From assembly GCF_013426205.1 (NCBI RefSeq), contig NC_089424.1, positions 1,116,001 through 1,180,000 of the forward strand: a stretch of 64,000 bases of DNA. Direction: 5' to 3'. The stretch is from Metarhizium brunneum. Taxonomy: Eukaryota > Ascomycota > Sordariomycetes > Hypocreales > Clavicipitaceae. The translations under genes were made by a program, and so were the position numbers. Position 1 is the first letter of the stretch, and every line of letters starts with the position of its first letter. Positions 3,633-44,630 of this stretch are shown here, in pieces. Below the pieces are notes generated by a model. It was given only the letters and a program-made list of their open reading frames with translations, did no database searches and was not told the origin of the DNA.

Positions 3633-6600
3633 TCACATGGCAGTTTTAAACTCGTCAACAATGGAGATGAGCCCATTGACCATAGCCTCAGCCGCCTCTA
3701 AGCTCATTATGTGTGTATTGCTATTCAGCTCCAAGAATAGCTTATCGCCTCGAGTTTCCGATACCATGTGTATTGACATGGGCACAAGATGAGGGTTTTG
3801 AAAAAACTGCACCCTCGATACGCCCGCGGCAGATTGAATCTGCGGGTTCTCATCAATATTCTGGTGTTGAATGGTCGACTCAAACGTTGAACCTTGTGCC
3901 CAGTCTGTGCAGTTCTCAATAATCTCCTTGTAGCCAAGGGAATCAGCTTCCCCCACCGCAAGAAACTGTTCCTGAACGGCGAACAGTAGTTCAGTCAGGG
4001 TCTGAGTCGACGGGAATGTGACCCGTACGGGAATAAAGTTGAGGCAGCATCCTACTGTCTTGTCGATGCCGCCTATTTCCGAGTTCCGTCCTGCTACCAA
4101 ATGTCCGTAGACGACATCGCCTTGCCCAGTCAGCCGTGATAGAAGAAGTGCCCAAGCGGCGCTGGCTAGAGTCGCCGGAGTCATGTTGCCCGGAAGGCGA
4201 GGAAGACTTGTCTCTGCGCGAATATAAATTGCCTCTGGCTGCGACTTATGAATATCTGTCTGGGCGAGGAGATGTTTTCGCAGGGCACCGGGATGCTGCA
4301 ACCCCTGTAGAAGCCTTTTCCAGTATTCGATAGACTTGGACCGTCTGAGAGAGGCGTGCGACAGGAACGAAGAGAAGCTCGGGGGAGGAGGAGCTGTTCC
4401 AGGCCCATTTATGAACGACTCGATAATAGTGGGCAGGCAAACACCGTCGTACTGGGCGTGAGAAATGCGAATTATCAGCCTCTCACCTTGAGTCTTGTGT
4501 CTGAGGAGTACCAGAGCAACCGGCGGTTGAGTCGCGGAGACCTTGTGAGCATCGCTGACACAAAAGTTGTCGAGGGCTACGTCAAGATTCTCGCTGACAT
4601 CATGTACACGGAAGGGATGCTGGATGTTTTGGAGCACGACCTGCCAGAATCTCCCCTGCAGCCGCAAAAAACATGCTCGTAGAATGGGAAATTCGCCGAG
4701 GGTTCGTGTACAGGCTCTCTCCAACAGAGAGACGTCAGTGTTCTTGGGCAGATCTATATAGACGTAGTTTGCAAAGCGTCCACATAAAGCGTCATCAACG
4801 GTGTTGTCCTGGTTGATGCACATGACGGGATAAATACCCTTGACAAAACATCTTTCTTGGACGCTGGTGGCGGGTAGTATATCAGCAATGTCTTCGCCGC
4901 GAATGTCTGGGCAGAGGGAGACAATTTCCCTTGAAAGGGTTTCTTTGGTAGGAGAATCAACGAGCACAACCTCATCAAGCTCGGGGCCAGATTCCACCCC
5001 GTTTACATGCTGCCCGTCGACCAACTCAGCCAAAGTTTTGCGGTGGAAAACATCGGCTACCGTAATGTTGATGTGAACCTTTCGGGCCTCACTGACAAGT
5101 CTCATAGACGAGATTGAGTCGCCACCCAGATGAAAGAAGTTGTCGTCCAAGCCAATCATATCGATGCTAGCATTGAGAACCTTGGCCCAGATATTTTGCA
5201 TAACCTGTTCCGCCTCAGAAGTCGGTTGTCGGCTTGTCCTTTGTCCGGAAGATCGCACAGTCTCCAACTGCTCAATGCTGAATTGGGCCGCCATCTCCCG
5301 TAATCGCTTCCTATCAATGTTTCCCGTCATTGTCTTTGGTAGCTCTGAGACGGAGAACAACAAAGACGGCATCATGTAAGCAGGTAAATGCTCGGCCAAT
5401 CTGCCTTCTGCATCAGCTGGGATGGGGAGTAACTTGATAGGAGATCCTGGCTTATTGCCATTGATTATATCATCCTTCAGATGAACAAACATGGCAAGCA
5501 AAGAGTTTGAAGGCAGGTCTTCCCCTTGAGGTTTGATAACCTCGGCCACAACTTGCCCAACACCTGACATGTGGTTTTGGGCCCAGTATTCGACCTCCTC
5601 CAGCTCAATGGTTCGCCCGTGGATCGTTGCTTGAGTGTCTTCTTTGCGGCCAACAAATATCAGGCTTCCATCCATATTATAGCGAACTAGGTCGCCTGTC
5701 TTGTAGAGTCTGCCATGCCGTCCCTTCCGCTTGCCTGGAACGCCCATGAGCAACCATTTCGGGTCCTTGACGAAGGCTGCGTCAGATTTCACCGTGTTAC
5801 CGAGATGGCTGCAACCAACAAGTGGCCCTTCGAGAAGGAGTTCTCCAACGCAGCCGGGCGGGAGCAGGGAGTCATGGTTTTTGGGGTCAACCACCCACGT
5901 CACTAGGCCGGCCCCCTTGGCGGTAGTGACGGCCTTCTTGGCACAGACTGTTACGGCTTCTGGTCGCAATGTGGACTGTTTTTGGGCTAAAGAACCCTCT
6001 TCTGTTGGTACGTCGGAATTCCAACTCCATATAAGCTCCAAGTCATCACGGGTTAAGAGGCTTTCGTTGCTGATTTTCTTGTGAGGTTCACTTATAAGCG
6101 ATGACACGGCGGCTCCCATTGCCTTGGCTACTCGATCAGCTTCGGTGCTTGGAATAAACCCTCCTTTAAAATTAATGTCAATCGACAGATCTGTATCACT
6201 GTCGCCAACACTTAGAGAAATGGGGTACTAAGGTGAATCATGTTAGTATTGGCTGATACCCGGAGGCCATTGAAGCGATGGCACTGCGTCTGCCTACCTC
6301 TACTGGATCATGAGCAAATCTCTCTCGGATGGTATGTCCGTCCACAGATGCATCTGGTTGCTCGCCAACTCGTTGAAAACTAAGAATAGAATTAAACAAC
6401 CCCGACGAGCCGACTTCAAGAGCCTCGTGGATTTCCATTAGTGAAAACGTCTGATGTGGCAAACTATCTACGTAGTCTTTCTGCGCTTCCCGCAATGTCT
6501 CCACGACCGAATGACCCCCGTCCAACCGAACACGGTAGGGGATCATGGCGATGACGGGTCCGAACATATCTCCGAGTCGGTCGACCGGCACATCTCTACA

Positions 6601-9600
6601 GGAGGCGAGGTTGCCAAAGCAAGGGTTTGCGCAGCCTGTGAAGTGATACAGCACCAGGGCCCATGCTGTCTGAATCACAGAAGCCGTCGTGACTTCCCAT
6701 TTAGCACAAAATTCATGTACTTTGGATGCCTCGAGGCCTGGAACTGAGACGGTCATGTCCTTCGACTCCCCTGTTGCCGATTTCGAGGGCGGGAAGAAAC
6801 AGGGTTTCACCCCTTCCAAATACTTGACCCAAAAATCACGATGAGAACCACGCGGTTGCTTTTCAACGTATCTGATGAAGTCGCCGTACGAAGGTGCATC
6901 CGCCGAGAGAGTGCCACTGTAGGCTTGCCAGAAGTCATGAAGCATCACGCCGGTCGAGTGTCCGTCCAAAATCACATGATTCAACTCGAAACAAATACGG
7001 ACGTGCTTCTCGTCAATGCTAGATACTGATAGGTGGTGCTTCAGGGCGTACTTTTCATACTTGACGCGAGTTTGGCCGCCGCTTAGTCCACGGTCTATCG
7101 ACGCCTCGGATGCAGACTGATCAAATGAAATGCTGGGTTTTGGGTCTTTAAGCACAACATGCATTGTCCTGCTGCTCCCGGGCACCATGTCAACCAAGAT
7201 ACTGCGCAGTAACGGGTGTCGCCGCACCACGGCTTGCCAAGCTCGTTCGATTCTGAGTAGGTCGACATGGTCGCCAGGCGTCTCAGTGGCTGTTATTTCA
7301 AAATCGAGCACCACTCGATAGTTGTCCAGGGATTTGAACTGGGCAAAGAGCAGACCCTCTTGCAAGCCGGTACAGGGGAAAATATCTTCAATATCCTGTG
7401 CGTTCTGGAGCCCCAACTGGCTCAATGTGACAGACCGGAACTCGTCCATGTCGGCGTAAGACGTAAACGCCAAGGGAAAGTCGGATAGAGTCCATTCTGG
7501 AGACCTGCTGCCCAATAGTGCATCCAAATTCGTCAAGGCAGCTTTGTAGCTTACCACCCAATGTTCGATTAAATCACCGTGTCGTGTGCTCTCGGGATAT
7601 TCGAGGGACACAGTCAACCGGCCCTTGTCCACATGCGCGTTGAATTCAAACAGCGCAAAACGACGCAACTTTGACCACGATTCAGGATGGCAGTTTTCCA
7701 CCATCGTGGTACTTTCGAAAATGCTGTCGTTTCTTTCTAGCTGCTGGTAGGAGCCAGCAAAGTTGAGTAATACCTCGACAGGGAAGTCGGTGGCATGCGT
7801 TGCGGCAGTAATCTCCTGAGCAGATTTAGATGTGAAGTAGGACCAGCCATTCTTTGACAATCTTCTGACAGAATCCTTGGTCAGGCGTATAGTGTCCACT
7901 AAGTCGAGGAGTTCTCTTTCGGGCACAAACGCAGGAGAAATCGTCGTGAACCAGCCAATGACTCGAGAAAGATCAATGCCGTCGTCCCAGGGTTCGCGAC
8001 CATGCCCTTCACTAAATACCGATGGCAAGGCTCGATCAGTAAAAACGGTTGAGAAGGAGTAAATAAGAGCCGCTATTATTAGTTCGACCGGACGCGTGCC
8101 AAACGCCTCGTTACAGGCGCCTAAAATCGCACTGGTAGCTTCTTCATCTATAATAAACTCCTTGGATACAATCGCCCCTTGCAAATTGCCATCAGCTTCC
8201 AACCCCCAGTACGATAAAAGCGGCGGCTTGACCTTGACTTCCAGTTTTATTTCTTCTTGAAGGTTCTTAAGCGCATATTGTGCTTGAAGAGAGCACCACC
8301 TCTGGAAACTTATCGTCGGACTTGCGCATAGTTGGCGCCCACTGAGGAGACCTTCAAGCTCTTCGAGTAGAATTCTCCATGAAACTAGATCAATAACAAG
8401 GTGATGCACCGTGATAAACAGGCTTTGGCAGTCCGGGTCGCTAAACAGAACTGCTGCCAGAATAGGGCCAGTCTCAATGTTAAGCCTCTCCCGACATTGA
8501 CGAATTTCGCTAGCCTTTGATGAGGTCACCGATGCTGCGCCATCTATTTCCGAAAGGTGAAGTGACTGCGACGCATCGTCAAGTATACGTTGCTTCCAAA
8601 CGCCGTTGCTGGTTAGGATGAACCTGGCCCGGAGCATAGGATGTCTCATGACAATCGTCTCGGTAGCCTTTGACAAGGCGGCAAAGGATATTGGCTGACG
8701 CAATTTCAGGAAGAAGTTTTGGTCAAAACACTGGTTCGGATGCGACTGCGTCGCCACGTAAAGCTGCTGAATCGGGCTCAGCTCGAAAGGCTGGCCATCA
8801 TCATTCCTCAGATCAACCTTGCCCACCCCCGGGGCATGATGTTTTGATAAAGAGGCAGCCGCCGCGATGGAGGAAATGGTCTTGCTGCGCATAATGTCTG
8901 CTGTAGATATATCCAGACCGAGCCCTCGGGAAGCCGCCGATGCCTGCATAGCAGTAATAGAGTCGCCGCCAAGCCGGAAGAAACTATCGTCGCAACCAAT
9001 CTTGTCTGCATCGATGCCCAGGACACGAGCCCATACTTTCTGAAGCGTGTGTTCCGTCTCGTTGGCAGGGGCACGCTTGTTGCTGACAGACGCGCTCCTA
9101 AGCTGGGCAAGTTGCTGAAGAGTGAACCCGGCTCCGAGTTCGCGCAGACGACGCCGGTCTATCTTGCCGGAGCTGTTGGTAGGGAGTTCCTTGAGAGAAA
9201 AGTAAACGGTCGGAACCATGTAGCCGGGCAACCGCCTCGTAAGTTCATGGTCAACTTCAGCCGATACGCTCATGACTTGGACGTCTGGTGATACGGCCAC
9301 TTGATCGTCAACGACAAGAAATGCAGCCAGTGTTGGCCGCCCCTGGCCATTCGTATCCGCAGGTAGTATCACTTCAGCTGCTACCTGTCTAGCAGCGGGA
9401 ATGCTAACACGGACGTGGTGTTCGACGTCGCCTAGCTCGACTCTTTGCCCGCGAATCTTGACTTGCTTGGCATCCTTGCGTCCGACAAAGACTAGGCTGC
9501 CATCTGAATCATACCGCACCAAGTCTCCCGTCTTATATAGGCGGCCTTGACGACCAAGATAGCCTGGCGCCCCGTGGCAAAGCCATGCTGGATCCTGGAT

Positions 9601-12600
9601 AAAGGCTGCTGCTGTCTGTTTGGCATCACCAAGATAGCCGCAGCCGACGAGAGGCCCTTCCAGCATCAACTCTCCGACATCCCCGATAGGAACTAATCTA
9701 TTGTGGTCTGAGGCCTGTACTACCCAAGTATTGACGCCAACACCCCTGCCTATGCTAGATGCCACTACACTTCCCCCCTCGATGGCTGCTATTGTGGTGA
9801 TCGGAGTGCATTCGCAAGGACCGTACCCGTTTGTTAACCGAGTTAGCCCAACCCATCGTTTTGCGTACTCGGACGGCAGCGCCTCGCCAGCCAGCATGAG
9901 CGTCCGGAGGGAGCGGATAGTCTCAAGCGGGAGAATATTCGCGGTCGACGGCGTTAATATTGCAAAGGTGGCTTGTAGCCGGTGAATGGATCCCGCGAGA
10001 TCGTTTCTTCGGTCCGCCTCGGAAGGAATGCACAGGCACGCGCCGTTTGTCAGAGACTGCAGGTTGTTAAACCAGCTGATGTCAAAAGCGTACGAAGCAA
10101 AGTCGTATACTCTTGCCGTGGGTTCGACACTACCGGAGCTTGAGTTGCGCACATGCTGGATCGCGGAGCTGAAATTTCGATGAGTAATGACAGCACCTTT
10201 GGGAACTCCAGTACTTCCCGATGTGAAGGCAACGTAGAGCTTGTTCGATGGTGTCACGACTGGCAGTTGACAGGTTCCCGATACCGACTTCAACCTTGCC
10301 AGCAGACTGTCATCAACTACGACAACGTGCTGTCGGGTCACACGACTTGCCAGCTCCCTGTTTGCCCAAGAAGACAGCATCAGCGCGGGCTCAGTTTGCT
10401 GTACGATTGTGCGAAGGTGCTCTTCCGGTTGGGTTGAGTCCAAAGCCACCGATGCTCCTCCGGCTTTCATGACCGCCAGCATGGCGACTGGTGTCCAGCG
10501 AGACTTTTCAAAGCACAAAGGCACAATCTGCTCTAGCCTGACGCCGAGAATAACTAGATAATGGGCTATCCGTGAGGAAGCTTCGTCCAGCTCGCTGTAT
10601 GTCCACTCTCCATCCCAGGCACATACGGCAGAAGCTTCAGGCTGAGCTTGAGCTGTCTGCTCGAATAATTCGTGAACGCATTTCTCTGCTGCCAATGGTA
10701 CTTTATGGTTCCAGTTCCACATTTGCTCAAGATCTTCGGGAGTCATGGTTTCGACATCGGATAGGAGAAGCTCAGGGTTGGCCTGGTTCAGCTGGGAGAC
10801 CACATGTCCCAACCGGCTTAACAGCTTATCGACCCTCCATGGCTCTATCATCCTCGAGTCGAAGGAAGCTGAAACGCTCACGGTTTCTCTACCAAGTTGC
10901 ATGATAAGCACAAGACCGTACGAGTCGATTCTGTCTCCTTGGCCGAAGTCGCCCTTCCACGTGCCCAGCTCGGACGAGCTATCACTCGCTTCTTCCGGTT
11001 GTATCACGACTAGCGTTTGGAACCTGCATGCTTGACGTGTCCCAGAACCGAGTTCAGCCAGGTTGTGTAGGCCGAATTGCTCATATGGAATCATTCCTGT
11101 TGCCTGCTGCTGTGCTGCCTTGAGGTACTCGACTGCCATGTCGTTGCTGTTCCATTTTATGCGCACTGGAACCGTCGCAAAGGTTGGACCGGCTATCATT
11201 TCGATGCCGGGAAGTGATGCATTTCTGCCGAATAGCGTCACCCCAAAGACGACATCTTCCGTACTGGTCATCTTGCCAACAAGCAAGGCCCATGCTGCAC
11301 GTATCATGATCGGAGGAGTAATGCCCAAGCGGTTGCTTTGGGGCTTTGGGAAAGAGTATTGAGCAGATTTGTCCGTCGATGGCTTCTCAATGTGCGGTGG
11401 GAGACTCGGGAATGGTGCACATTGGCAGTCGTCGAGAGCATCAACCCAGTACGCCCTCATCATCTTGCTGTCCTGGTTCTTGACGTATTGTACGAAGGCT
11501 TGGAATGGCGGACCCTGTCGAAACTCCTTGCCCCGGTATGCCTTCTTCACGGCGTCTAGGATTAGTGGCATAGACCATCCATCATAGAGGGCGTGGTGTA
11601 TAGTCAACACAAACCACTTGGGGGTTCCTATGGTGTCTTTTATTAGGGCAAAGCGAGTCAGTGGCCGGCCCAGGTCCATGGGTCGCTCGATATCAGATTT
11701 GATATATTCCTCCAACGAATCTGCTTCGATCCAGTTTATAGGCTCGTCCATGACGATCTGGACAAGACCGACGCGGTCGTGATGCACCAATCTAGTCCGT
11801 AGAATTGGGAAACGGCGCACAACTTGCTCCCATGCCGCACACAGCTTCTCGATTGAAGCATCAGGGGATATTTCAAGCACGTTCTGCCCGATATAAGAGC
11901 CTGGACTCATTGACGTCAAGGACATCAGACCTTCTTGCAGCGGAGTGCATGGATATGCGTCTTGTATGAACGTATTTCCTGTTGTCCCATCGATCTGGCC
12001 TAGGTCGTATTGGATGCATATCTCTTGAAGAAGAGTACTTGGAGAAGCCTCATTGGATAAGAGGGTAAATGGACCTATTTCTTGATCTGGTTTCTCATCC
12101 GGGGATTCATGGAGGCTCTGGTCGACCAGATCATGCAGCACCGGATAACGAAATATATCAGCTACACTCAGTTTCATGCCAATCTCTCGAGCCACAGCCA
12201 CGACTTTCATGGCGGATATGGAGCTGCCTCCAATATGGAAGAAACTAGCGTCAGCCCCGATGGTGGAAGGGTCAATATTCAAGACTTGTGCCCAAACCTG
12301 GAGCATCTGTCGCTGTACTTCCAACACGGGCTGCCAAACAGGGACTCGTACCGAGGTCTTGGATTCTAGGCCTTTGACAAGTGCTAGACGATCGATTTTG
12401 CCGTTTCGGTTGAGAGGCATTCTGTCCAGAACCTCAATCACTTGCGGTACCATGTATAGGGGGAGCTGAGCCTTCAGCATCCCGAAGAGCTCGTTCTGAA
12501 TCTCTTGCTTACTCCTCTTTTGCGACTTTCCATTGTTGAGAAACTGCTCGGTCCGACCCCGATGGTCCATCATGGAGGTATATTCCCCGTCGCAGTGCGC

Positions 12601-14511
12601 CTTCCGTCCATCTCCATTGTCAGTCAGCGAGTCGATGCCATCGACATCACGCACAGTCACGAAGCTGACGATCCGGGACTCTTGGCCCTCTTCGTGCTGT
12701 AATGCGGCGACCGCCTCATCCACACGGGCATGATTGCGGAGGGTGTGCTCAATCTCCCCGAGCTCAAGCCGCTGGCCTCGGATCTTGACTTGAGCAGCTT
12801 GCTTCCGGCCAACAAATTTCAGGCACCCGTTGCTCGTGTATTGTACCAAGTCGCCGGTCTTGTACAGCATACCGCGCCGCCCCGGCTTGGTTGCGGTTCC
12901 GCGAAGTAGCCACTCCGGGTCCTCTATAAACGAAGCCGCAGTCTTTGCATCGTCATTCAGATAACCTCGGCCGACGAGTGGACCTTCTAGTAATAGTTCA
13001 CCCGTACATCCTGGAGCAAGCAGCGTCTCGTGGTCTTCTGGATCAACAATCCAGGTGACTAGTCCCACGCCCTTTCCCATATGTACCGCCTCGTCCGGGC
13101 CGGCCATGTTGTAGTTGATCGTACTTGTCGGTGTGCATTCGCATGGCCCGTAGATGTGAATGATGTTGACTCTTCCCCACCATCGCTTGATATCCGTAGG
13201 ATGCAGGGCCTCTCCTCCGAAAATTACAGTATTGACCGAAGGTAGCCTGTCGGGCGATAACACTTGCGCCATGGACGGCGTAATATCAAGTATATTGGCT
13301 TCTAGCGAGGCTATGCTTTGCTCCAAGTTATCCTTGCGATCTTCATCGCTTGGAACACATAGGCAGCCACCTGTCGCCAGGGCAGAGAGCACATTGCTGA
13401 CGGAGACATCGAAGCTGTATGATGCAAAGTCAAATATCCTCGCATTCTCATTCATCCCCATGCATTCTGCTTGATGGTATAGAGCTGAAGCGGCATTCTT
13501 GTTGGTAATCAAGACCCCCTTTGGGATGCCAGTGCTTCCGGATGTGAAAACCGCATAGAGAAGTGATGCCGGGTTGGCAGGGTAGGTTTGCGGGACATCA
13601 TCGTCAATATTGTCGAGTTCGGTTGAGGTGAAGAATTCCCAATTGATGACGACTGCTCTCTGTGTAAGTCGCGAGCTCACTTCACCATTGGAAGGGGAAG
13701 ATACGATGACCTTAGCCTGGAGTTGCTGAACAATGACTTGCAGGCGCTGTTCAGGGAGCGAGGGATCCAGCAGAACAAAAGCGCCTCCAGCTTTAATTAC
13801 GCCGAGTACTGCCACTGTGGTCCACATAGACTTTTCAAAACATAGCGGTACTAAGATATCTGGTCTGACCCCTAAGCGGCGAAGTCTCGACGCCAATTTG
13901 GTAGCAAGGCCATCGAGCTCACTGTATGTAAGCTCTCCGTCCCAGGCACAAACAGCAGGAGCATCAGGTTGGGCCCGAACTCTCTCACTTATCAAATCAT
14001 GGACGCATCGCTCCACGGACTTTGGTGCCATGCTATTCCATCCCCACATTTGCTCTAGATGTTGGGGCGCCGCGGCGCTGCCCGAGGCTGGCTTCATCAA
14101 CTCGCCATTCGAGTGAGGCTCACGGTCATGGTCAATTTTGACTGTTTGAGTTACTGTAGCCGGGCTACCATTGCTCGCCGTGGTGGATGGGATTCGGGTA
14201 GTTTTGGTGCCGTTGCTACCGTTTGCTAAGAAACAAGCCTCTTTACTTGCTGTGCCGTTTTGTAGCGGCATTGTCGCTGGCAGGCTGTTATTGAAACCAG
14301 GCTTCGATACTTTGCATGTAAGCTCTTGACCAAGAACTTGGCTCAAGCCATCTCCGGGCATGTCGACAGTGTTGACTGGGATTGGTCCGGGGATGACAAG
14401 TATATCTAACCCCCACGTTATATCGTCACCTTGACTTTTTGATATATTTTGCGGTGTGAATATCAGAGGACGAGTATTGCGCGGTTGATTAGCGTTCCGG
14501 TTGGCCTTCAT
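3633..14511 (-). CDS. Trimodular non-ribosomal peptide synthetase with an inactive third adenylation domain
   Basis: Two exons, 14511-6298 and 6227-3633, encode 3602 aa. After a low-complexity leader of about 150 aa the order is: A1 (FTSGSTG near residue 322, YGPCECTP near 453, NGKIDR near 700); T1 (GGSSIS near 760); C1 (HHALYDG near 970); A2 (FTSGSTG near 1428, SGKIDRR near 1778); T2 (GGDSIT near 1846); E (HHLVIDLVSWR near 2036, EGHGREP near 2167); C2 (NHVILDG near 2510); a truncated A3; T3 (GGDSIS near 3104); and terminal C3 (SHAQYDG near 3330). It should build a peptide from three carrier-bound units, the second epimerised to D. A3 has lost its core motifs 1-5, and its final motif reads TGNIDR, so the catalytic lysine is asparagine. 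Release may be by the terminal C domain, as in other fungal synthetases. Residues read by eye for the A1 and A2 pockets start with Asp, as expected for alpha-amino acids; I do not assign substrates. Divergent from the P450. Confidence 0.95.
6228..6297 (-). other. Intron of the NRPS gene (70 nt)
   Basis: Donor GTAGGC, perfect branch site TACTAAC and acceptor CACCTTAG. Removal joins ..AHDPVE to YPISLSVGDSD.. in frame and restores a continuous C2 domain, so the two long reading frames on either side are one gene. Confidence 0.93.
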
Positions 14512-17657: not shown

Positions 17658-17989
17658 ATATATTAGACGTCAGCTATTTTCCAATTCATCCGTCCAGACT
17701 CCACACCCTGCTTTGTGTATCCGCGATGCGTCCCTCTGTATGTGATATTGCTGCGTGCACGTGACGTGAATACTGCGGTCAAAAAGCACCTTGACCTTGT
17801 CCTACATCAGCATCTGCATCACAGTCCAAGAGGCGTGCGGGGGCAAGCGGACAAACGGATCAAGGGACGACCTACAATATAAGGCTTGTCCGTCAAGCTC
17901 CGGCTCCAACAAGTCGGCAGATGGTCGAGTTTACGCCTCTTTTGCCTTCTTCCCTCACACAGCACAGCTCCGGCAACAACACCTACGAG
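17658..17989 (+). promoter_or_regulatory. P450/aminotransferase intergenic region with TATA box
   Basis: TATAA at 17878-17882. It lies only about 40 nt ahead of an in-frame ATG at 17921 but 110 nt ahead of the ATG at 17990. A 5' leader therefore fits better with translation starting at 17990. Confidence 0.5.
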
Positions 17990-26185: not shown

Positions 26186-27069
26186 TGGTGGAGTACGTTG
26201 ACAAGGAACAAAGTTGACAGGACAAGTAGTGCGGCAAGAGGCTAGAAGTTGGATTTGTGGTGGGTTTGTGTTTTGGCCTTTGTGTTAAAAAGCTCAATAA
26301 GAAGTAAATGAGGTTTTCAAGTAAGACGCAGGTGGTTTAATGTTCAAAATCCAGCCAAGCCGCTCGTTTTACCGTCCACCCCTTGAAGGCAACACCCCTG
26401 CCCAAAGGCATCGAACATGACGGCGAGATGCATCCTACAGAGTATAAGAAGACCGATTCTTATCTGGTGAACTTTTGTCATAAAGTGATTTAATCGCGTC
26501 TTTGTCACTTCGTTCCCTCGGCTGACTTAGAAATGGCAGAATGGCAAGAACGGTCATGATGCCACCGGTGGCAAGCAGTTACGCAAACGCCAGCCGGTGA
26601 CGAAGTAACATCGTCACCAAGCTATCCGCGCCATGTGCCGCCGCTCATCGCCGCTTCAGCAGATCTGGGCCGTTGTAACCCCAGGCTTGCCGGCTAAGCG
26701 GGATTTTGATTCCGGTGACATTGGATGGACGGGAGACGTGTGACGTGGGACGGAAGCTGGGGCTCCACAAGTTCCTGAAATTGCGAGATATTCATGCCTA
26801 AGTGGGTCCGAGCCGTGGTAGCGATCGTGAGTGAGCCGTGATGAACCAAGACCGACATTTGGATCCGACGTTGTGGCTGGCTGAGACATGCCGCAGGCAG
26901 CCCATGATATCTTCAAGGGCATTCAAGGCCTGTACCCCAGACTTGGCACACTGTTCCCCGTACCGTTCCCCGAGGGTTTTTAGCACTAGGAAATCCGAGT
27001 CATGTTCATCGTTGAGTCTGACCGCGTCCAGACCGGACTCCTCTTTCCTCAAGTCCAGCTTCCTCCTGG
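26186..27069. promoter_or_regulatory. Divergent intergenic region, LolT-like gene / hypothetical gene
   Basis: 0.88 kb with no supportable gene; upstream region of both neighbours. Confidence 0.5.
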
Positions 27070-29284: not shown

Positions 29285-30456
29285 TCACTGGTCAGTGGAG
29301 CCAAGATACTCGTTGCGTCCCGTCAGCATGGCACCATGCTGCTTGGCATCCAGGCTCGCTTCTCTGAACAGGGCGTATTTTTGATTATGCCACTCCACAC
29401 TGTTCATCTGCTTTCCGTCATGGGTAGTAAACTTGGCATCGAATTCTGGCCGCAAGAAATAAATCACGGAGAACTTGTCCTGACCTGTTGAGTCGGGTGG
29501 AGGTACCACGCGGTGAAGAGATGAGGCCAATACACCATTGGAAAGAAAACGCAACGAGTCTCCGACATTCACAACGGCGTGTCCAGCTCGGGGTGGAATA
29601 AATGACCACTCCCTATCTCCGGGCAGCATAGCCTGCAAGCCATCCGACTGGGAGAAAACAACCGTTAAAGTTCCCATATCAGTATGTGCCATGTTCCCGA
29701 TCTGGTCATGACTGCTTCCCCAAGCTAGGTACTGCAACATAGCCATGTTTGCAGACGATGGCTTATCCTTCCGGTGACAGTCCTTCAAGTCATACGGAAG
29801 CTCCAGCGCTTTAGACAGATTTGACAGGATGCAATCAGTATACTGATGAACCTCGCTCATGAATGTCTCGAATAGGGACAAGTTTTCATCAATGGCTGGA
29901 GGAGCATTGATGGTATCCTCCCCAAAGATTCCATTGTTGTGGATCTACAGGTATCGAATCAGTTCGATTCGGACACGTTTAGAACATGATGAAGCAATCA
30001 CCTCATTGCCATCCTGCCGTCAATGTGGGAAGAGTGGGAACATACCGAGAAGCTCTCATAACCGTCTTTCTTCCCGGCAAATGGCCCAACGGAGCACCCG
30101 ACTGTTTTGTAGCTAAAGCGTAAAACTTTAGCTTCATAGTTCTGGCAAACGTGTCATCCGAGTCAGGCAGAGCAAAACAAAACATACCCGAAAAGTCTTG
30201 ATGGTAGATATTTCTCGGTGCTATATTGTTCTTTCTCTTCTAGTGGCAGCTTGAAAACTGACTTGCCAATAGCAGCGAGGTCGTCGACAAGCTTCAAGAT
30301 GTCACATGTGGACTCGTGACGGAAATCAAGGTAAAAGAATCCATTTTCTTTGCAAGCGGAAACAAGGTCGTTCACAACATCGTCGTTCCCGGCAAGAAGT
30401 CCCGCCAGCGAGATCGATTTCAGATCTGCCTGTTTGGACGATTCGACGGATCCCAT
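29285..30456 (-). CDS. Isopenicillin-N-synthase-like Fe(II)/2-oxoglutarate dioxygenase
   Basis: Three exons (30456-30188, 30112-30046, 29944-29285; introns 75 and 101 nt) give 331 aa. The N-terminal DIOX_N region includes ISLAGLL and ACKENGFFYLDFRHE. The catalytic half reads GNMAHTDMGTLTVVFSQSDGLQ (His195, Asp197 of the iron triad) and SSLHRVVPPP (His256). Where most relatives carry RxS to hold the 2-oxoglutarate carboxylate, this protein has KFS (Lys269, Ser271) in GQDKFSVIYFLRPEF. The family covers fungal hydroxylases, desaturases and ring-forming enzymes, including the loline ether-bridge enzyme LolO. A role in oxidative tailoring or cyclisation of the cluster product is likely; the precise reaction is unknown. 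The start is the ATG of MGSVESSKQ; the upstream extension begins with TTG. Divergent from the aldolase gene. Confidence 0.9.
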
Positions 30457-31537: not shown

Positions 31538-32655
31538 ATGCACGAGAAAGGGAAAATGCTCGACACAAATCACTACAACGCCTTAAGCTTGGCTCAGCCC
31601 ACGAATTTCAAGTCCATGTTGCACTCGGGCAAGCTACTCTGGGGCACGGGATGCCGAATCCCCCACGAGGAAGCGGCACGGATAGTTGCCTCGACGCCGT
31701 ATCATTTCTGCTTCATAGACGCGGTACGCTCACCACGGCCACGCGCGCCGTCCTAGTTGCCATCTGACGAATGTGTACACGCACAGGAACACACGCCCCT
31801 GAACGCAACGCTGCTGGTCAGCCTTGTTCGCACGATTCAATATCACTCCAACGGCTCCATGGTGCCATTTGTCCGGATCCCAGGCTGCTCGCCCGAGCTG
31901 GTCAATTATGCGCTGAATGCCGGCGCGGGGGGCGTCATGATGCCTCACATCCAGAACGCCAAACAGGCAGAGGACCTGGTCCGGTTGGCTCGGTTTCCGC
32001 CCATGGGAGACCGGAGCTTCCCTCCCGCGGCGCTGATCAACAAGAAGCAGCAGAGGACGCCGGAGTCCCAGACGGTCTACGACGTGTGGAACAGCCATGC
32101 CGCTGTCATCTGTCAGATAGAAGATCTGCAGGGCCTGGACAATATTGAAGAGATTTGCGGGGTTCCAGGAGGTGCGTTTCAGTCGTACATGCCGTTGTTC
32201 GTGTCTGCCATGTATGTATGTGCTGATACTGCTTGCCTGTAGTTGACGGCCTTTTCATTGGGACCGGCGATTTGCGCATGTGTATGGGATTGGCTGTGGG
32301 CAGTCTCGATGGTGATGAACCCGTGTTTGTCTCTGCGCTCCGGAGGATCCGGGACGCCGCAAAGGCCAATGATCTTCCCATCATGGGTTTTGGCATCTCC
32401 CCTTGTACCCTAGAGCGTAGGATTGACATGGGCTGGAATGCGTTCATCATACATGGCGACATTGATGCCATATGCACCTCGGCCATCCGGTCATTGGATA
32501 CTTACAGTGATGCTGCCGATCGCCATTTATCCAAGATTAGTGACAAGAATGGCAATGGCTCTGCCAATGGCTTAGATGACGATTTGGGAAGCAGAACAAG
32601 AGGGGAGGGGGCCGTTGGTTCTCTGAACGGTTCCCAGTCCGTGGGACCTCAATAG
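31538..32655 (+). CDS. HpcH/HpaI-family aldolase (pyruvate-type class II)
   Basis: Three exons (31538-31723, 31787-32171, 32243-32655; introns 63 and 71 nt) give 327 aa. The motif DAEHTP spans the first splice, VPFVRIPG and GVMMPHIQNA follow, then QIEDLQGLDNI (metal-binding Glu) and DGLFIGTGDLRMCMG (metal-binding Asp). These are the TIM-barrel signatures of metal-dependent aldolases that add pyruvate or a related enolate to an aldehyde, or the reverse. The last 40 or so residues are a Gly/Asn/Ser-rich tail beyond the usual family length. In this cluster it could extend glutamate semialdehyde made by the ornithine aminotransferase, giving a longer hydroxy-oxo amino acid for a second aminotransferase. 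That route is inference. No targeting signal. Confidence 0.9.
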
Positions 32656-33578: not shown

Positions 33579-35518
33579 ATGCTTCTTCCACAGACCGCGC
33601 TCCCCGACGACCCCATCTTCTCTAGACTAGTCCAACTCGCCACCCGCAGAGATGGTCAAGTTATTGTCGACGACCGCAGCCGCGGCACACAGTTTGGCTA
33701 CGGCCACATTCTCCACGGCACCGTGGACCTCGTGCAGAAGCTTCGGAGTCTTCTCAACAGGGATATCCTAGATAACCGCGGCGGGTTTTACATTGCCGTC
33801 TTGGCCCCTAACAGCTACGAATTCATTATTGCGGTCCTCGCTGTCCTAGCTCTCGGCGGTGTTGTCGTCCCCATGCGTGAGTCCGTCCCCCCCTCGCGGC
33901 AAAACGTCTCGCTGGATCGAATTGACAATCCTTGCTGCAAACAACAGCCACGGGCGCACTTGCATCCGAAGCAGCGCATATCCTGCGGCAGTGTGGTGCG
34001 TGCTGTATTCTCGTTGGGCCAGAGCAAGTCGACCTGTTGGCCCGGATCGAAGACGAGGTCAAAATACCCTCTCTCTTGGTCAGGAGCCACGTGGGCGACT
34101 CTAAATCTAAGAACCCGGTGCCGGCTACGTCCTTTGCGCTGGACCCGGCGGCCGCCGTGTCTGAAGAGTGTCCTAGCATATTGTTCTTTACTTCGGGGAC
34201 GAGCGGCCCTCCAAAGGGTGTTTTGCACGCCCGTCGGACGGTCAGCAAGTATGCTCGGCTGGAGGAAGTCGGGACGAATGAGGAGATTTGCATCATACCG
34301 AGGGGCGCGTTCTGGTCGCTGTATTTCACGAAACTGTTCCAAATGCTGCTTATAGGGGTGCGCGTCGAGATTCACAATTTCGGACGCAACTACGACCTTA
34401 TATGGGAGAAGCTCCGTGATGGAACCGCCACGCGGATTGCCTTGTCCCCTACTTTCTGGTACGGCATGATGGACTTTTTCCAGAGACACATCTCCAAGTT
34501 GCCCGAGTCTACGATCGACGAGTACGTCCGGGGGGTTCGGCAGCTTGGCGATGCGTCCGCATCGGGAGCCGTGTTGTCGAATCGCATCAAAGAGTTTTGG
34601 AAAGACATGCGTGGCGGACGGCCGCTCAAGGTGCAGTACGGGTCGACGGAATCACAGGAGATTTCCATCTGCGACGAGGGGGCCGGCATGGTAGAGGTGA
34701 GGCATCTCGCCGAATAGGCTTACGCTTTTTCTGACACGAGTGTGAGCCAGGGTGATTTGGGGGTGCCGTTTCCAAACGTGACTATCAAGTTGTCAGAGGG
34801 TGACGAAGGGGAGCTGCTTGTAAAGACTCCGGCTATGTTTCTTGGGTATACATCTCCCTCACTTTTCGTCTGACGGCATGCGCTAAACACTGCCCGTGGT
34901 CTCAGGTACTTGAACTCGTCGGACTCTACGGCGCAATGTATGGACTCGGACGGGTTTTTCAAAACTGGTGATCTGGCCATCCGCCAGAACGGCCGGTACA
35001 TCTTCAAAGGAAGGGCAAACATGGATTGTCAGCACTTGAACCCTCACTCATGCCCGTCTTGCGCGAGACGCAAAATCTAACGTTGTGCCATTGACGCAGT
35101 GTTCAAGTTTTATACGTACAAGGTCCCGCGGATGGAGGTCGAGTCCTGCCTGCTTGCGCTTCCTTATATCGAAGAGGGATACATCATGCCGGTGGCAGAT
35201 CCGCAGTGCGATACCCGGGTGGCTGCCCTTGTTCGTCTCCGAGACTGTTTCCATACAGTTGACCTGAGTACTATCAGGGGCGACCTTTCCAGAGACTTGC
35301 CTGCCTATCAACTGCCAACTGTGCTTCGGGTTTTGAGAGACGGCGAAACGGTCCCTCGGACGTGGTCAGACAAAACCGCATTGAAGCAGGCAGTGCGGAT
35401 GTTCTTCCCCCAAGACGACGAGGAACGGCTTTGTGGAGAGGCGATAGAAGTCATGGATGTGAGTGGCTTCATGAAGATGGAAACCAAGAAGCCATGGGAC
35501 CTTTCAGGAATGAGGTAG
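33579..35518 (+). CDS. Stand-alone adenylate-forming (ANL) ligase, acyl-CoA synthetase-like
   Basis: Five exons (33579-33876, 33948-34696, 34751-34845, 34906-35027, 35100-35518) give 560 aa. Motifs: VVVPMPTGAL, the phosphate loop ILFFTSGTSGPPKGVLH, VQYGSTESQEIS, GELLVKTPAM, FFKTGDLAI, YIFKGR, and the C-terminal SDKTALKQ carrying the probable catalytic Lys. No carrier protein or condensation domain is attached, so it is either a CoA ligase or a free-standing loading enzyme. Known fungal relatives include malonyl-CoA/long-chain and aryl acid ligases; the substrate cannot be assigned. Its presence in a cluster whose NRPS lacks one working adenylation domain suggests it may load T3 in trans or make an acyl-CoA for condensation. 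Several short introns of normal fungal type, all with GT..AG ends. Confidence 0.9.
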
Positions 35519-36240
35519 CTGTCTCTTTACAGATGGTCGATCCCAAGCTGTAGTACACGCCAGAAGGAGGGCCAAATTCACAACCTGCCGCCAGCTCAGG
35601 GGAGACAGTTAGGAACAGAGTCCAAAATAAACAGGACCAATGGTATCCAATTTCCTAAACAGGGAATAAATTACAATTTACACCTCGCACACTCGACACA
35701 CAGGGTCAGCCCGCCATCGTTCACAAACCCCTGACTATATATATACATTTGTGCTGAGCAGATTGTCATGTGGAGTGTTTTCCCAACTGCTCTTGACCAG
35801 GGAATTCGGCAGCTCTCGTTCGTCTTCCTCACCATAGCCGGACCACGCTCATATCCATCGTTCAGTGTCCTTTATATCTTCTAGTTTCAAGATACTAATT
35901 GTACTCAGTGAGGGCACCATCCTGAGTCCTCCTCCCTCACAACTCAAGGGGAAATGGACAACCAACAGAGCAGACTCAAGGTAGAGTTCAAGGTCATGGA
36001 TCCGCGTTTTCCCACTACATTTCCGACAAGACCAGGCTTCCCTTTTCACATTCCTCTACACAAAAGGCACAGGCTTTCTTTCATACAGAAACGCCTGTAA
36101 TACGGTAGAGCTGATGCGTGTCACGATGGAGGCTTGCAAGAAATTTCGCTGATTATTTCTGCTGCTCACCACTTTTCGACATGACCGTGCCAACTTTCCG
36201 ACTCTACACTCCCTGCCACTTCAAACCATCGACATTTGAC
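35519..36240. other. Intergenic, convergent gene ends
   Basis: 0.72 kb; no gene seen. Confidence 0.6.
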
Positions 36241-37698
36241 TTACCCGGTGCTCGAGAGGCCCGAAAGCTCTTCAACACACTCCCTGATGATTTCCAGTCC
36301 CTTTTCAAGTTCGTCTTCGGTGACAACCAGGGGCGGGGCGATACGAATGACACCGGTACGGCTGGATTTGAGCTGAAAACAATTACTAACAAGTCTTGTC
36401 AAGTGACGACTCCACGTATAAATACGTACCAAAAGGCCCTTCTCTTTCATCCGCTCACACAGTTCTATACCCAAGCATCTACTGGTCTTGGACTGGTCGA
36501 TGACGAAGGCGTTCAAGAGACCTCTACCACGGACAGTTTGGATAATAGGATTACGAGCCTGGATAGCCCTCAGACCCTCGCGGAGAATATTGCCAAGGCT
36601 TTCGGCGCGCTTGACCAACTTTTCCTCGTCGACGACTTCGAGAGCACGCATGGCGACGGCCGCGCCGAGCGGATTGCCGCCGTACGTCGACCCGTGCGTC
36701 CCCGGCTCAACCGTGAGCATGACGTCGTTGCTGCCCAGGACGCACGAGACGGGATACATGCCGCCCGTCATGGTCTTGCCCAGCAGGACCAGGTCGGGCC
36801 TGACGCCGCTCCAGTAGTGCCCGAGCAGCCTTCCGGTTCGCGCAATGCCCGTCTGGATCTCGTCGCAGATCAGCAGGGCACGGTATTTGTCGCAGAGCGC
36901 CCGCGCCTCTCGGAGGTACTCGTCGTCGGCGACAATGACGCCGGCGTCTCCTTGGATCGGCTCGACGACAAAGGCGGCCAGGTTGAAGCCCGCGCTGTCA
37001 AAGGCCTCCCGCAGCGCGTCCTTGTCGTTGTACGCGATGGGCCTGTCGGTTCCGGGAATATAGCAGCTTATATTGGAGACTAGGGGGCCGTAATTCTCTC
37101 GCGACTGGGCGTCGGAAGCCAGAGAGATTGTGGCTAGCTGTGAAGCAAAGACGCTGCTGTCAACTGTGTTCACCTAAGTCGCTTCATGTTATGCCGGATT
37201 ACGTACCGTTCGTCCGTGGTGGTTCCCTGCCGCGCCGAGGATAATCGCCTGGTCCTTGGGAACGCCTTTCACCTTGTAAGCCCACTTTCGAGCGACCTTG
37301 ATAGCAGTCTCGGCCGCCTCGGCGCCAGTGCTTGAGGGCAGGACGCGGTCATAGCCAAACGTCTTGGTTACCATCTCGGCAAACTGCGGGTATACGTCGT
37401 TGTGAAAGGCGCGCGAGGTGAGCGTCAGCCGCGAGGCCTGGTCGACAAGCGCAGCGACGAGCTTCGGGTGACAATGGCCATGGTTGAGGGCCGTAGAAGC
37501 CGAGTGGAAGTCGAGATAGTGACGGCCCTCGGGGTCCCAGACAGATGCGCCCTGCGCGCGGGAAAACACAATGGGTAGGGACTGGTAGTTTTGGGCCGAA
37601 AAGTCCTTTTCGGCCTGGAGGGCAATGTCGGTCGTGGCAGCGCGGTGCGCAATCGCGAGCTTGCCTGGGCCCTTGTCCTTGACACCGTTGGACACCAT
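36241..37698 (-). CDS. Ornithine aminotransferase (class III PLP)
   Basis: Three exons (37698-37207, 37137-36430, 36372-36241; introns 69 and 57 nt) give 443 aa. Motifs: [44 protein letters not shown] across the first splice, [41 protein letters not shown] with the Schiff-base Lys at residue 285, and [15 protein letters not shown]. This is the full class III set and closely resembles fungal ornithine delta-aminotransferase, which turns L-ornithine plus 2-oxoglutarate into glutamate 5-semialdehyde (spontaneously pyrroline-5-carboxylate) and glutamate. No mitochondrial presequence is visible, as is usual for the cytosolic fungal enzyme. Its place in the cluster suggests a dedicated copy feeding an ornithine-derived building block. 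Whether the genome also holds a housekeeping copy cannot be seen here. Confidence 0.93.
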
Positions 37699-39225
37699 TA
37701 TGTTGAAGGACGACTTAGTATAGAAAACACAAGTAAATTTTGCAAAAGGATGGATGGAATGAAGAGGGCCGGGAACTTGGGAGACAGATACGGCCTTCAG
37801 GCGGGCTGAGGAAGCTGTATATCAGGAAGTGTTCAACCAGGGAGTATCCGGATCTCCAGACACATTGAGGGTATTTTAGCAGTTACCAGGAGAGCATGGA
37901 GAATGGCTACGAGTTCCATAACATTTGTAGGCTCTACCCAGAGTGATATCGACGCAGGGGCGACTTCACGCCGCAAGGAGGGACTGACTTATACTAGGAG
38001 AAACGGGAGTGCGAGAAGCAAAGAGGGAGAATTGTCCACGGTACTCACGCAACGCTACTAATGACGCAGTGGAACACGCCAACATGTCGGTTCCAGCCTC
38101 AGATAGTAATCCAAAGTCTCATCACATGCGCAACTCCAACACAGACCCTGTCCAGCCTACTGATATTCCACTTCTGTACGGCCACGCATCTCTCTTCCCT
38201 TACCCAACAGAATTTTGTACAATTATGGCAACGCTGGGCAGAATCATCCACGGGCCCCCGGCGACGAGACACGGCACAAGGGGCTCTGTAACAAAAGTAA
38301 TATTGGGTTTCGGTGCATTGTGTAAAGCGCTCGGTCCCGGCTACCGCCGCATGGAGTATCAACCCGGAACTATTTGTTAGTGATATCCAATCCCCTATGC
38401 TCCCTTGGATTCGCTCCAGGATCTCAAGAGGTAAATATTGGTTCTCCCCCTATTATAGCGAATTACTACTATTGCAAGCCAAGAATTCAAAATTACCAGC
38501 CAAAAGTAGTATTGACATTGGATGCTCGACTTGGTAAATTTAGGGCCAATAACACAGAAGCATAAGAGTCAAGAGGTGCTAAACACAGACTTGACTCGGT
38601 TGTTTTCAACTCAAGGCATGATGGCCTACAAAGACGACAGCTGGTTAAGCAAGCCAACATACCTCTTTAATCATTATCGCTCATTTAAGAGAAAAACAGG
38701 GGGAAGCTTGTATTTGAAAAACATCCACAAACAGCCGGTACACCGCTTGTTTCCGTGACATAGCCAGGATAATCATGAGAATCGTAAAACAGGGAGACAC
38801 AGAACCAGTACTGTCCCCAAGTCTACGCCGGCATAATCTATGGAAAATACCCGCGGGGATGAAATCTCTATTCATTCCTTGTTCCATGTTGTGCCGCGTA
38901 TTGCTTCCCAACAACGCAGACGGCAAAACCAAAACTAGATTGTAAACTGCGAGAAAATGACGACGGGAGGAGCGGCTAAATATAGCCACACACCTATCCT
39001 TGTTGCTTTAGCCCGTGTGCTCATAACGTAGCAGTCTCATTCGCCGGATGGCGTAGCACAAGCATGATTTGGGGCGTCTTCGTGCCAAACCGCCATCTTG
39101 TTCACTCGCCCCGTCGCCAATATTGTTTGCCCGCCCAGCACTCTGATACTACACCACCCTCAACCACTCACCAAGCGTACACGCCCGTCATTTCGAAAAA
39201 CAAACCCGCACTCGACCGCGCAAAC
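37699..39225. promoter_or_regulatory. Divergent intergenic region, ornithine aminotransferase / TIM-barrel gene
   Basis: 1.5 kb with only short frames lacking motifs; no gene supported. Confidence 0.5.
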
Positions 39226-40323
39226 ATGAGCAACGGAAACAGCGTCACCGGCGAGGTCCAGCAGCAAAAGCGCTTCCTCCCCTCCATAGCAACCATGTCG
39301 CTCGGCTCGTCCACCCTCCACCCCCTAGATGTGAAGCTCAAAGTCGCAGCCGCAAAGGGCTTCCTCGGCATAGAGATGTACTGGGACGACCTGGTGCAGT
39401 ACTCGCTCCAATTCCGCCCCAAGCCGCCCTCGCACGCCGCGCACGAGGCCGTCGCCGTCCTCGTGGCCGCCACCAACGTCGCCAACCTAGCAGCGAGGCT
39501 CGGCCTCAAGATCCTCTCACTCCAGCCGTTCCGCAACTTTGACGGCCTGGCCGACCCGGGCCTCCGGGAGAAGCGGCTCGACGAGTTCAGGCTCTGGCTA
39601 GCCACGGCGCGGCGACTGGGGGCCGACATCATCGGCGTGCCGAGCACCCTGCCCACGGTCAGCGCGGCCGACTACACCGACAACCGGCACGCCATCGCGG
39701 CCGACTTGGCGAAGCTGTCGCGGGCGGCAAAGGCGCAAGGCATACGTGTTGCCTATGAGAACCTGTGCTTCGCGGCGCACGTCAGGGACTGGCACCAGGC
39801 GTGGGACAGGATAGAGCTCGCGCGCGAGCCCGACGGCCTGCTCTTTCTCCCTGATACGTTCAACATTTGCGGCCGGACGTACATGGACCCAGAGGCGGCG
39901 GGGGGCAGGACGCCCAACGCAGAGGCGGACTTGAGGGCGTCCCTCGCGAGACTCGTCGACACGGTTCCCATGTGCAGGATGCCGCTGCTGCAAGTTGCCG
40001 ATGCGGAACTGCCCGACGAGCCGCTGACGCAGGACCACCCTTGGCGCAAGGAGGCGGGACTGGTTCCCCTCATGGCTCTCAGTCGGAACGCCAGGCTGTT
40101 TCCCTTTGAGGAGAGAGGGTACTTGCCTGTTGTGAGCGTCATACAGGCCCTTGTCGGCGCCGGATGGGAGGGATGGGTGAGCATGGAGGTGTTTTCGAGG
40201 ACTACGGCAGTGCACGGGGAGGAGACCATCTGGGAGCACGCGGAGAGGGCTTGGGAGAGCTGGGAGAAGTTGGCTCGCGTCATGGGTTGGCCGGCTCGGC
40301 CGCGGATAGACGGCAGCAGGTAG
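39226..40323 (+). CDS. 3-dehydroshikimate dehydratase-like sugar-phosphate isomerase/epimerase (TIM barrel)
   Basis: Intronless, 365 aa from the ATG of MSNGNSVTG. The barrel starts SIATMSLGSSTLHPLDVKL and GFLGIEMYWDDL, and continues with LKILSLQPFRNFDG, GVPSTLPTVS, GIRVAYENLCFAAHVRDW, LLFLPDTFNICGRTYMDP (metal/substrate region) and GWEGWVSMEVFSRTT. This is the xylose-isomerase-like fold. The N-terminal SxMSLG and YExL segments match fungal quinate-pathway 3-dehydroshikimate dehydratases, which make protocatechuate. If that activity is kept, it could supply an aryl acid for the cluster's ligase. Alternatively it isomerises another small metabolite. The GC-rich, strongly biased codon use differs from the AT-richer neighbouring intergenic DNA. 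It ends 133 nt from the convergent DUF1989 gene. Confidence 0.85.
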   Translation: MSNGNSVTGEVQQQKRFLPSIATMSLGSSTLHPLDVKLKVAAAKGFLGIEMYWDDLVQYSLQFRPKPPSHAAHEAVAVLVAATNVANLAARLGLKILSLQPFRNFDGLADPGLREKRLDEFRLWLATARRLGADIIGVPSTLPTVSAADYTDNRHAIAADLAKLSRAAKAQGIRVAYENLCFAAHVRDWHQAWDRIELAREPDGLLFLPDTFNICGRTYMDPEAAGGRTPNAEADLRASLARLVDTVPMCRMPLLQVADAELPDEPLTQDHPWRKEAGLVPLMALSRNARLFPFEERGYLPVVSVIQALVGAGWEGWVSMEVFSRTTAVHGEETIWEHAERAWESWEKLARVMGWPARPRIDGSR

Positions 40324-40456
40324 TTTATTTCTAAACACGGGCGAAGAGGGCGCCACGTCTTGCTGTATTCAACGTACCCCCGATGTCAATATTCCATGAG
40401 CCCAGAGTGAGTGCCATCGGCCACCCTTTGACAACGAGAATGATGTGTCGTCGTCG

Positions 40457-41086
40457 TCAGGCGGGATCGTCGAGCACATGGTATTCGGCACTGCTTGGTT
40501 TGCCGCCGTTGCAATCGGTGATATCCATGGGACAAGCACTCATGAAAATCACACAGTCCTGTTCGGCCTGCAGCACAACGTAATCTCCGGCCTTGCTCTG
40601 CGGTCTCAAGTTGTGCAACTTGTTGCCTTTGACGACGACGTTCATGAACAGGTTCAGCGGGTCGGGCACCCATCCACATTCAAGAAACTCGACTACCTTG
40701 TCGAACGCTGCGTCGCCATATGCCTTGACTGCCGAGTAGAGATTATTCGCGCAGCTGTCATGCTCAGGAGCGCTACCGAGCTGGGCATAACGCTCCGGGG
40801 AGCAGGCGGCGAAGAAGACGTCGTGCACGCCGGGTGACGTATCGTGAAGCATTGTGAGCATCGGCCGTCGTCGATTATCGAGGAACGTCTCCCGATTCGA
40901 GGGCATCAACTCAGGCAAGGTCGAACGTGTATGGACCATGGACATGTAGGCGGGGAACATGCCCGGGGCTGGGATGCAAAAGGCCCATGTATCAATGACT
41001 TGACTGCCGTTTGTGTTGATGACTTTGATAGCCTGCCCGGTGTGCAATCGAGCAAAGGCAAAGGAACGGGCTGGAATGGTGAGCAT
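40457..41086 (-). CDS. DUF1989 (urea carboxylase-associated) family protein
   Basis: Intronless, 209 aa from the ATG of MLTIPARSFAFA; the frame stays open upstream but that stretch looks like leader. Motifs: IPARSFAFARLHTGQAIKV, NGSQVIDTWAF, STLPELMPSNRETFLDNRRRP, HDTSPGVHDVFFAACSPERY, HDSCANNL, PDPLNLFMNV and DYVVLQAEQDCVIFMSACPMDI. Together these define DUF1989. Bacterial members of the family work next to guanidine/urea carboxylase, where paired DUF1989 subunits act as carboxyguanidine deiminase; fungal members are uncharacterised. In this cluster it could act on a guanidino or ureido group, which would fit arginine/ornithine-derived chemistry, but that is inference. Only one subunit gene is present, whereas the bacterial deiminase uses two. 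Confidence 0.88.
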   Translation of the reverse strand: MLTIPARSFAFARLHTGQAIKVINTNGSQVIDTWAFCIPAPGMFPAYMSMVHTRSTLPELMPSNRETFLDNRRRPMLTMLHDTSPGVHDVFFAACSPERYAQLGSAPEHDSCANNLYSAVKAYGDAAFDKVVEFLECGWVPDPLNLFMNVVVKGNKLHNLRPQSKAGDYVVLQAEQDCVIFMSACPMDITDCNGGKPSSAEYHVLDDPA

Positions 41087-44608: not shown

Positions 44609-44630
44609 GGCCGGGGTAGCAGGGGACTCA

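Follow-up and report, generated by a model that had tools for sequence, protein, structure and literature searches.

Gene Content of the Locus

The window analysed here is a 64 kb stretch of DNA of the insect-killing fungus Metarhizium brunneum (contig NC_089424.1, here C3, positions 1116001-1180000), and the locus under study, at positions 3633-41086 of the window, carries 12 genes recognisable in Pfam and NCBIfam profile searches together with one unnamed gene. The set is more than a chance run of genes and very probably a secondary-metabolite biosynthetic cluster: relatives of its nonribosomal peptide synthetase (NRPS), a TauD-family oxygenase, a UstD-like pyridoxal phosphate (PLP) enzyme, the unnamed gene and an aldolase are linked in fungal genomes other than this one. 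Gene models were made with a home-made gene finder and splice sites were read by hand, exon ends being uncertain for the unnamed gene, the ornithine aminotransferase (OAT) and the ligase; the nearest solved relatives were taken from PDB sequences.

The NRPS (3633..14511, minus strand; exons 14511-6260 and 6210-3633; 3609 aa) has the order A1-T1-C1-A2-T2-E-C3-(A3 remnant)-T3-CT, where A, T, C and E denote adenylation, carrier, condensation and epimerisation domains and CT the terminal condensation domain. To its right lie a cytochrome P450 (16080..17657, plus; 525 aa in a single exon, haem motif FGHGARICLG), a fold-type I (class I/II) PLP enzyme nearest to the cyclodehydratases GntC, VioD and OrfR (17921..19120, plus; 399 aa), a CmcJ/NvfI-family non-haem iron oxygenase (20206..21155, minus; 296 aa, two exons), which passes the NCBIfam NF041278 cut-off with 214.1 bits against 80, and a TauD-family 2-oxoglutarate (2OG) oxygenase (22413..23647, minus; 352 aa, four exons). 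The middle of the locus holds the UstD-like class V PLP enzyme (24748..26185, minus; exons 26185-26055, 25984-25851 and 25724-24748; 413 aa), the unnamed gene (26794..28512, plus), whose uncertain model of about 402 aa has no Pfam match, a DIOX_N-type 2OG oxygenase (29285..30456, minus; 331 aa, three exons) and an HpcH/HpaI aldolase resembling macrophomate synthase (31538..32655, plus; 327 aa). The right part consists of an AMP-binding acyl/aryl-acid ligase-like protein in which no carrier domain was found (33579..35553, plus; 547 aa), the OAT (36241..37698, minus; 443 or 462 aa, according to how one intron is read), a xylose-isomerase-like barrel (AP_endonuc_2; 39064..40323, plus; 419 aa), whose weak dehydroshikimate-dehydratase likeness rests on a sole NCBIfam match, QuiC, which scores 67 bits where the cut-off is 1200, and a DUF1989 protein (40457..41086, minus; 209 aa). 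A preliminary description, made from the sequence alone, had listed this gene set with three non-haem iron oxygenase types, and the profile searches confirm it, CmcJ/NvfI, TauD and DIOX_N included.

Conservation and Extent of the Cluster

Judged by protein matches, the cluster is not confined to Metarhizium, and parts of it occur in Penicillium, Aspergillus and further ascomycetes. Among the matches listed (the best 120 of 557 for the UstD-like protein and 80 for the aldolase), nine genomes have both genes under one locus-tag prefix, and in seven of these nine the two lie 2-3 tags apart (UstD-like/aldolase: QQS21_001910/001913, Q9222_000824/000821, E4U21_006916/006914, E4U42_003636/003634, FQN49_003788/003785, HIM_06681/06683 and IFR05_010570/010567). 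The exceptions are Claviceps citrina (003989/000265), where the genes are on two short contigs, and Penicillium antarcticum, where they share a scaffold prefix with numbers far apart; the E4U21 and E4U42 genomes each encode, in another place, one further aldolase that is more distant. The NRPS joins the pair in Conoideocrella (QQS21_001906, followed by the 001910 and 001913 genes), and in M. anisopliae the tags of NRPS and aldolase are H634G_04981 and H634G_04988. Relatives also co-occur among the matches of M. album (NRPS, UstD-like protein and aldolase), of M. rileyi, A. terricola and F. pseudograminearum (UstD-like protein and aldolase) and of M. acridum (NRPS and aldolase). Two records, one of Metarhizium humberi joining TauD to the UstD-like protein and one of Aspergillus similis joining a relative of the unnamed protein to the aldolase, are probably gene-model fusions of neighbours. 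Overall, we consider it very probable that the cluster is real and that its conservation extends over the left and middle genes.

The history of the cluster may not be a single one. In the class V tree described below, the M. rileyi UstD-like protein (P0010) groups with Claviceps and not with the window or other Metarhizium, which counts against a single history and suggests transfer or paralogy. Claviceps genomes hold the UstD-like enzyme and the aldolase, and no Claviceps record whose length or contig would indicate this cluster is present among the best 120 of 681 NRPS matches.

The four genes beyond about 33 kb, which encode the ligase, the OAT, the barrel and the DUF1989 protein, are putative members of the cluster. 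It is possible, if doubtful, that the unit ends near the aldolase, at about 32.7 kb, and that these four genes are neighbours with primary or unrelated roles: the linkage found elsewhere, in searches made with the NRPS, the UstD-like protein and the aldolase, is limited to the five genes named at the outset, and G+C content in 2-kb windows is 0.456-0.534 at 2-34 kb versus 0.531-0.561 at 34-42 kb. Against this shorter unit stand the short intergenic gaps and the OAT itself, which has a likely second copy on contig C5 of the same genome, a situation common for cluster genes. The OAT, also named in the preliminary description, is secure as to family (TIGR01885, 629.5 bits versus a cut-off of 378.4); its C5 homologue is 49.5% identical over 295 residues and 60.3% over 151, and the C5 exon in the first matched stretch fits TIGR01885 best, with 245.5 bits over part of the profile.

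Beyond the ends of the locus, a small cysteine-rich protein with a signal-like start (2383-2733, plus) adjoins the NRPS end, and the region 41200-44700, between DUF1989 and the kinase genes, has fragmentary open frames, two of which were tested and gave no Pfam match. An N-acetylglutamate kinase with a NAT domain (45036-46598, plus; 520 aa) ends without a reductase domain, which in fungal ARG5,6/arg-6 is usually fused to the kinase; the reductase domain (PF22698) is matched just once in the genome, by a stand-alone gene at C5:785051 that has its own leader-like N-terminus, and a second kinase copy at C3:2931684 is 68% identical, with a NAT part that looks frame-shifted. The kinase at 45036 was rejected as a cluster gene, being probably a housekeeping copy.

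The Predicted Carbon-Carbon Bond Enzymes

The class V enzyme belongs, on sequence, to the UstD/FGM3 group of PLP enzymes acting on carbon-carbon bonds, and within that group it is in a clade of its own. Against PDB sequences, UstD is best (426 bits; 48.8% identity over 406 residues) and FGM3 second (299 bits; 40.7%), followed by cysteine desulfurases at 120 bits or less. A tree of 67 sequences, made of 63 of the 120 matches considered (those of 390-559 aa) plus the window protein, UstD, FGM3 and SufS, places the enzyme in a 34-row clade (99/100) apart from that of UstD, with FGM3 on a long branch. The class V fold and the catalytic Lys258 in an FSWYK motif are present; none of the aligned rows departs from K258 or the WYK motif, and the pattern S[WY][YF]K.[FY]GPH occurs in all 120 matches considered. 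Pocket residues N299, D391, C392 and W393 are invariant in the other 33 members of the clade. Crystallised UstD has M, T and M where the window enzyme has N299, D391 and W393, and is the exception in its own clade, since D, C and W of positions 391-393 are each found in 13 of 14 UstD-clade rows. A second class V enzyme of the genome, at C1:277743-278711, is 54% identical to the UstD-like protein.

The two characterised relatives catalyse opposite reactions. According to PMC11976203 and PMC10367076, gamma-hydroxy-alpha-amino acids are the product of UstD and the substrate of Fgm3, and one such amino acid is cyclised by GntC. Fgm3 cleaves 4-hydroxyarginine, and its Tyr225 is a proposed base, a residue whose counterpart in the window enzyme could not be located because of a possible offset in the residue numbers of the solved chain. 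UstD, the decarboxylative aldolase of ustiloxin B biosynthesis (PDB 7mkv), has the same PLP lysine and surrounding motif as the window enzyme, and differs in belonging to a cluster for a ribosomally synthesised peptide and to a separate clade. FGM3 (fusaoctaxin; PDB 9x4u) is from the same fungal PLP group and from an NRPS cluster, as here, and acts on a gamma-hydroxy amino acid, but it is a retro-aldolase with other loop residues. An FGM3-like role in the same conserved cluster, in which an oxygenase would gamma-hydroxylate an amino acid and the class V enzyme would split it into alanine and an aldehyde building block, would draw on this clear relationship and on the four oxygenases available for hydroxylation; it is nevertheless unlikely, as the window enzyme resembles UstD more closely than it does FGM3, reads D-C-W at 391-393 where FGM3 reads H-F-F, and has F at position 260, as UstD does, in place of the Y of FGM3.

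A second candidate for carbon-carbon bond formation is the HpcH/HpaI protein, which the preliminary description had taken as a pyruvate-type aldolase. The family stands; the closest PDB relative, however, is macrophomate synthase (1izc; 121 bits, the next at 85; 74/243 residues identical, 30%). Thirteen of 17 printed positions are kept, the exceptions being S155, I158, E191 and T237, and all seven residues that we take to be of the macrophomate synthase active site (D70, H73, R101, H125, Y169, E185 and D211) are present. Because the aldolase is macrophomate-synthase-like, oxaloacetate may be its donor, by analogy with macrophomate synthase, which uses oxaloacetate and Mg2+ (PMC8159843). The window aldolase differs from that enzyme in lying inside an NRPS cluster.

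The GntC-like PLP Enzyme

The PLP enzyme at 17921 had been described simply as a second small-molecule PLP enzyme, and it looks like a cyclodehydratase of the GntC/OrfR/VioD kind, with scores below the family cut-offs. In NCBIfam the GntC model leads with 210.9 bits (cut-off 415), ahead of a general aminotransferase model at 180 bits and of VioD at 166.2 (cut-off 390.9), and in PDB 3op7 is first, GntC (8fft) second and OrfR (4m2j) third. Identity to GntC is 90/328 aligned residues (27%). K219 and S25 of GntC are matched by K245 and S50 of the window enzyme, and among the GntC residues named in PMC10367076, K219, D186, N158, Y189, R227, R346 and S25 are kept and F108 is replaced by Y; most of those kept are contacts common to PLP enzymes in general. 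The genome yielded no close paralogue (the next is 31% identical), and a search of genome contigs for bacterial relatives gave 21 stretches matching the patterns, none of which was confirmed. On these similarities, the enzyme looks like a better candidate for ring closure than the class V enzyme.

An NRPS with a Lost Adenylation Domain

The NRPS had been described as trimodular with one D-residue. Its Pfam content (PF00501 twice, PF00668 four times, PF00550 three times) bears out three T domains and four C/E-type domains, one of them the E domain that accounts for the single D position, but the third module has no PF00501 match, so that instead of three complete A-T-C modules there are two A domains and a deleted A3. 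With the last 1030 residues as query, 681 of 2322 candidates scored were matched; the best 120 were considered and ten of these aligned, namely five Metarhizium records (anisopliae, brunneum, acridum, album and majus), Conoideocrella, P. atrosanguineum, P. fimorum, A. udagawae and Mariannaea. The Mariannaea record (6149 aa) was rejected as an orthologue, since its A-domain codes differ. In the window and all nine other orthologous records the codes, read by motif, are identical for A1 (DVSIIGIPTK) and A2 (DIFLMAGPIK).

The A3 core (about 300 residues) is absent from all five Metarhizium records, present with degenerate motifs (TCGSTDAPTG, YRPSACN) in Conoideocrella, whose record is without CT; P. 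atrosanguineum, P. fimorum and A. udagawae have an intact A3. As several separate genome records show the loss, an assembly fault is unlikely to be its cause. The A10 lysine is gone from the remnant in the window and in 5/5 Metarhizium records (GNIDR or GSIDR), while T3 is retained in the window and in four of the five, the M. majus record being marked partial and misaligned there. By domain, the window NRPS is, oddly, only 91-99% identical to the NRPS record named M. brunneum (P0203). Identity to M. album is 64% in the remnant versus 68-81% in the other domains, and the remnant thus appears to be under relaxation with the rest of the module constrained.

These features bear on whether the Metarhizium NRPS has been decaying since the loss of A3, with the cluster yielding little or nothing. 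The deleted core, the missing A10 lysine and a remnant that is the most diverged domain would agree with decay; an open frame in the window, the continuation of four of the five Metarhizium records through T3 and CT (the fifth being partial), the kept motifs of A1, A2, T3, C3 and CT, and T3 (78%) and CT (74%) values to M. album that match the divergence of intact domains argue against it, and we regard decay as improbable.

A substitute for A3 was sought in the genome itself. There are 76 A-domain matches, the best of which (60%, C7:2787214) lies inside another large NRPS; the six best were examined, and a single-module or stand-alone substitute may lie among the others. In this genome the paralogue nearest to the intact A3 belongs to the C7 NRPS, where it is A domain number three (code DLHLIGIISK versus DIHLIAAFSK). 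The third residue of destruxin is proline, and the Penicillium/Aspergillus product may, as a weak inference, have a proline-like residue in that place. The C7 NRPS has six A-domain matches; destruxin synthetase has six modules, of which the last two carry N-methylation (PMC4869207). The closest paralogues of A1 and A2 in the genome gave no hint of substrate; the nearest to A2 is one of a run of eight A-domain matches (46-63%) at C5:46546-74704. The ligase of the locus was also considered as a loader of T3 and is unlikely in that role, its best matches being acyl-CoA synthetases (PRK07787; in PDB, malonyl-CoA ligase), with no Asp235-type motif seen by eye.

In domain order (A-T-C-A-T-E-C-(A)-T-CT) the NRPS resembles the fumiquinazoline and tryptoquialanine synthetases FmqA and TqaA, and its A. 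udagawae orthologue bears the name 'nonribosomal peptide synthetase 12'. It differs from FmqA/TqaA in that A1 keeps Asp235, unlike the anthranilate A domains, and in that A3 is absent. Fungal ferrichrome synthetases, which have A-less modules and in which two or more carrier domains depend on a single A domain, offer a parallel for such sharing, putative in the window NRPS, in an unrelated product class.

Proposed Pathway

The reading that we favour, with a probability of about 0.4, is that the cluster makes a small nonribosomal peptide containing a ring-bearing non-protein amino acid, by a route whose substrates and reactions are predicted from homology and in which the OAT and the ligase are putative members. 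The OAT would convert ornithine into glutamate-5-semialdehyde, to which the UstD-like enzyme would add an aspartate-derived three-carbon unit; the GntC-like enzyme would then eliminate the gamma-hydroxyl, and the second amino group would close a pyrrolidine. The macrophomate-synthase-like aldolase would deliver a second carbanion, a pyruvate enolate from oxaloacetate, to some electrophile. Two amino acids would be loaded by A1 and A2 and the second epimerised, module 3 of Metarhizium being filled or bypassed even though it has no A domain itself; the simplest case would be loading of T3 by A1 or A2. CT would release the product, and the P450 and the three iron oxygenases would tailor it.

Several observations weigh against this reading. 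In the comparative searches, made with the NRPS, the UstD-like protein and the aldolase, linkage was seen for these three, TauD and the unnamed gene, and nothing ties the OAT, ligase, barrel or DUF1989 to the cluster. A scan of 13 upstream regions, covering 58,494 dyads, revealed no shared promoter motif, its best p of about 1e-5 being no lower than the number of tests would yield, and no transcription factor is among the genes scanned, the intergenic stretches having been scanned in part. The class V clade is separate from that of UstD, the tree does not settle the order of the clades, and the activity of this enzyme may instead be of the retro-aldol or Mannich type. The PLP enzyme at 17921 scores below both the GntC and VioD cut-offs, with the general aminotransferase model between them, and could be an ordinary aminotransferase; S26, N52, T84, H188 and H250 of GntC are not kept (A, Y, S, T and I), residues proposed in GntC for contact with the guanidine or the gamma-hydroxyl are thus missing, and E9 corresponds to E34 of the window by spacing alone, beyond the printed alignment and with E32, E37 and E38 nearby.

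A scheme after the preliminary description, in which a LolT-type Mannich reaction would close the ring on an imine derived from ornithine, is improbable: LolT is a class V PLP Mannich cyclase and pyrroline-5-carboxylate from OAT a plausible imine, but the nearest relatives of the window enzyme among the solved structures are UstD (426 bits) and FGM3 (299), LolT not being in the comparison. Of the earlier interpretation as a whole, the biosynthetic cluster with OAT, aldolase and one D-residue is upheld, and the identity of the PLP enzymes, the aldolase type and module 3 have been revised. The view that no such cluster had been characterised agrees with the open-licence papers searched, in which no description was found, supplementary tables lying outside that coverage.

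The favoured route can be put more specifically, as a long shot. A two-PLP relay, a decarboxylative aldolase followed by a gamma-cyclodehydratase, might build a 5-alanylproline-type amino acid from ornithine and aspartate, and the loss of the A domain across Metarhizium, with loading by another A domain, might give a peptide different from that of Penicillium and Aspergillus. A 5-alanylproline-type core is known from kaitocephalin.

Significance

The enzyme pairing in this cluster is uncommon. Widely separated ascomycetes have the cluster in common, and no product of it was found in the open-licence papers searched. For Metarhizium, the NRPS is a natural case of a genus losing an adenylation domain yet keeping the remainder of the module. 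Two different enzymes of the cluster are predicted to form carbon-carbon bonds by decarboxylation, and would be useful for making non-protein amino acids.

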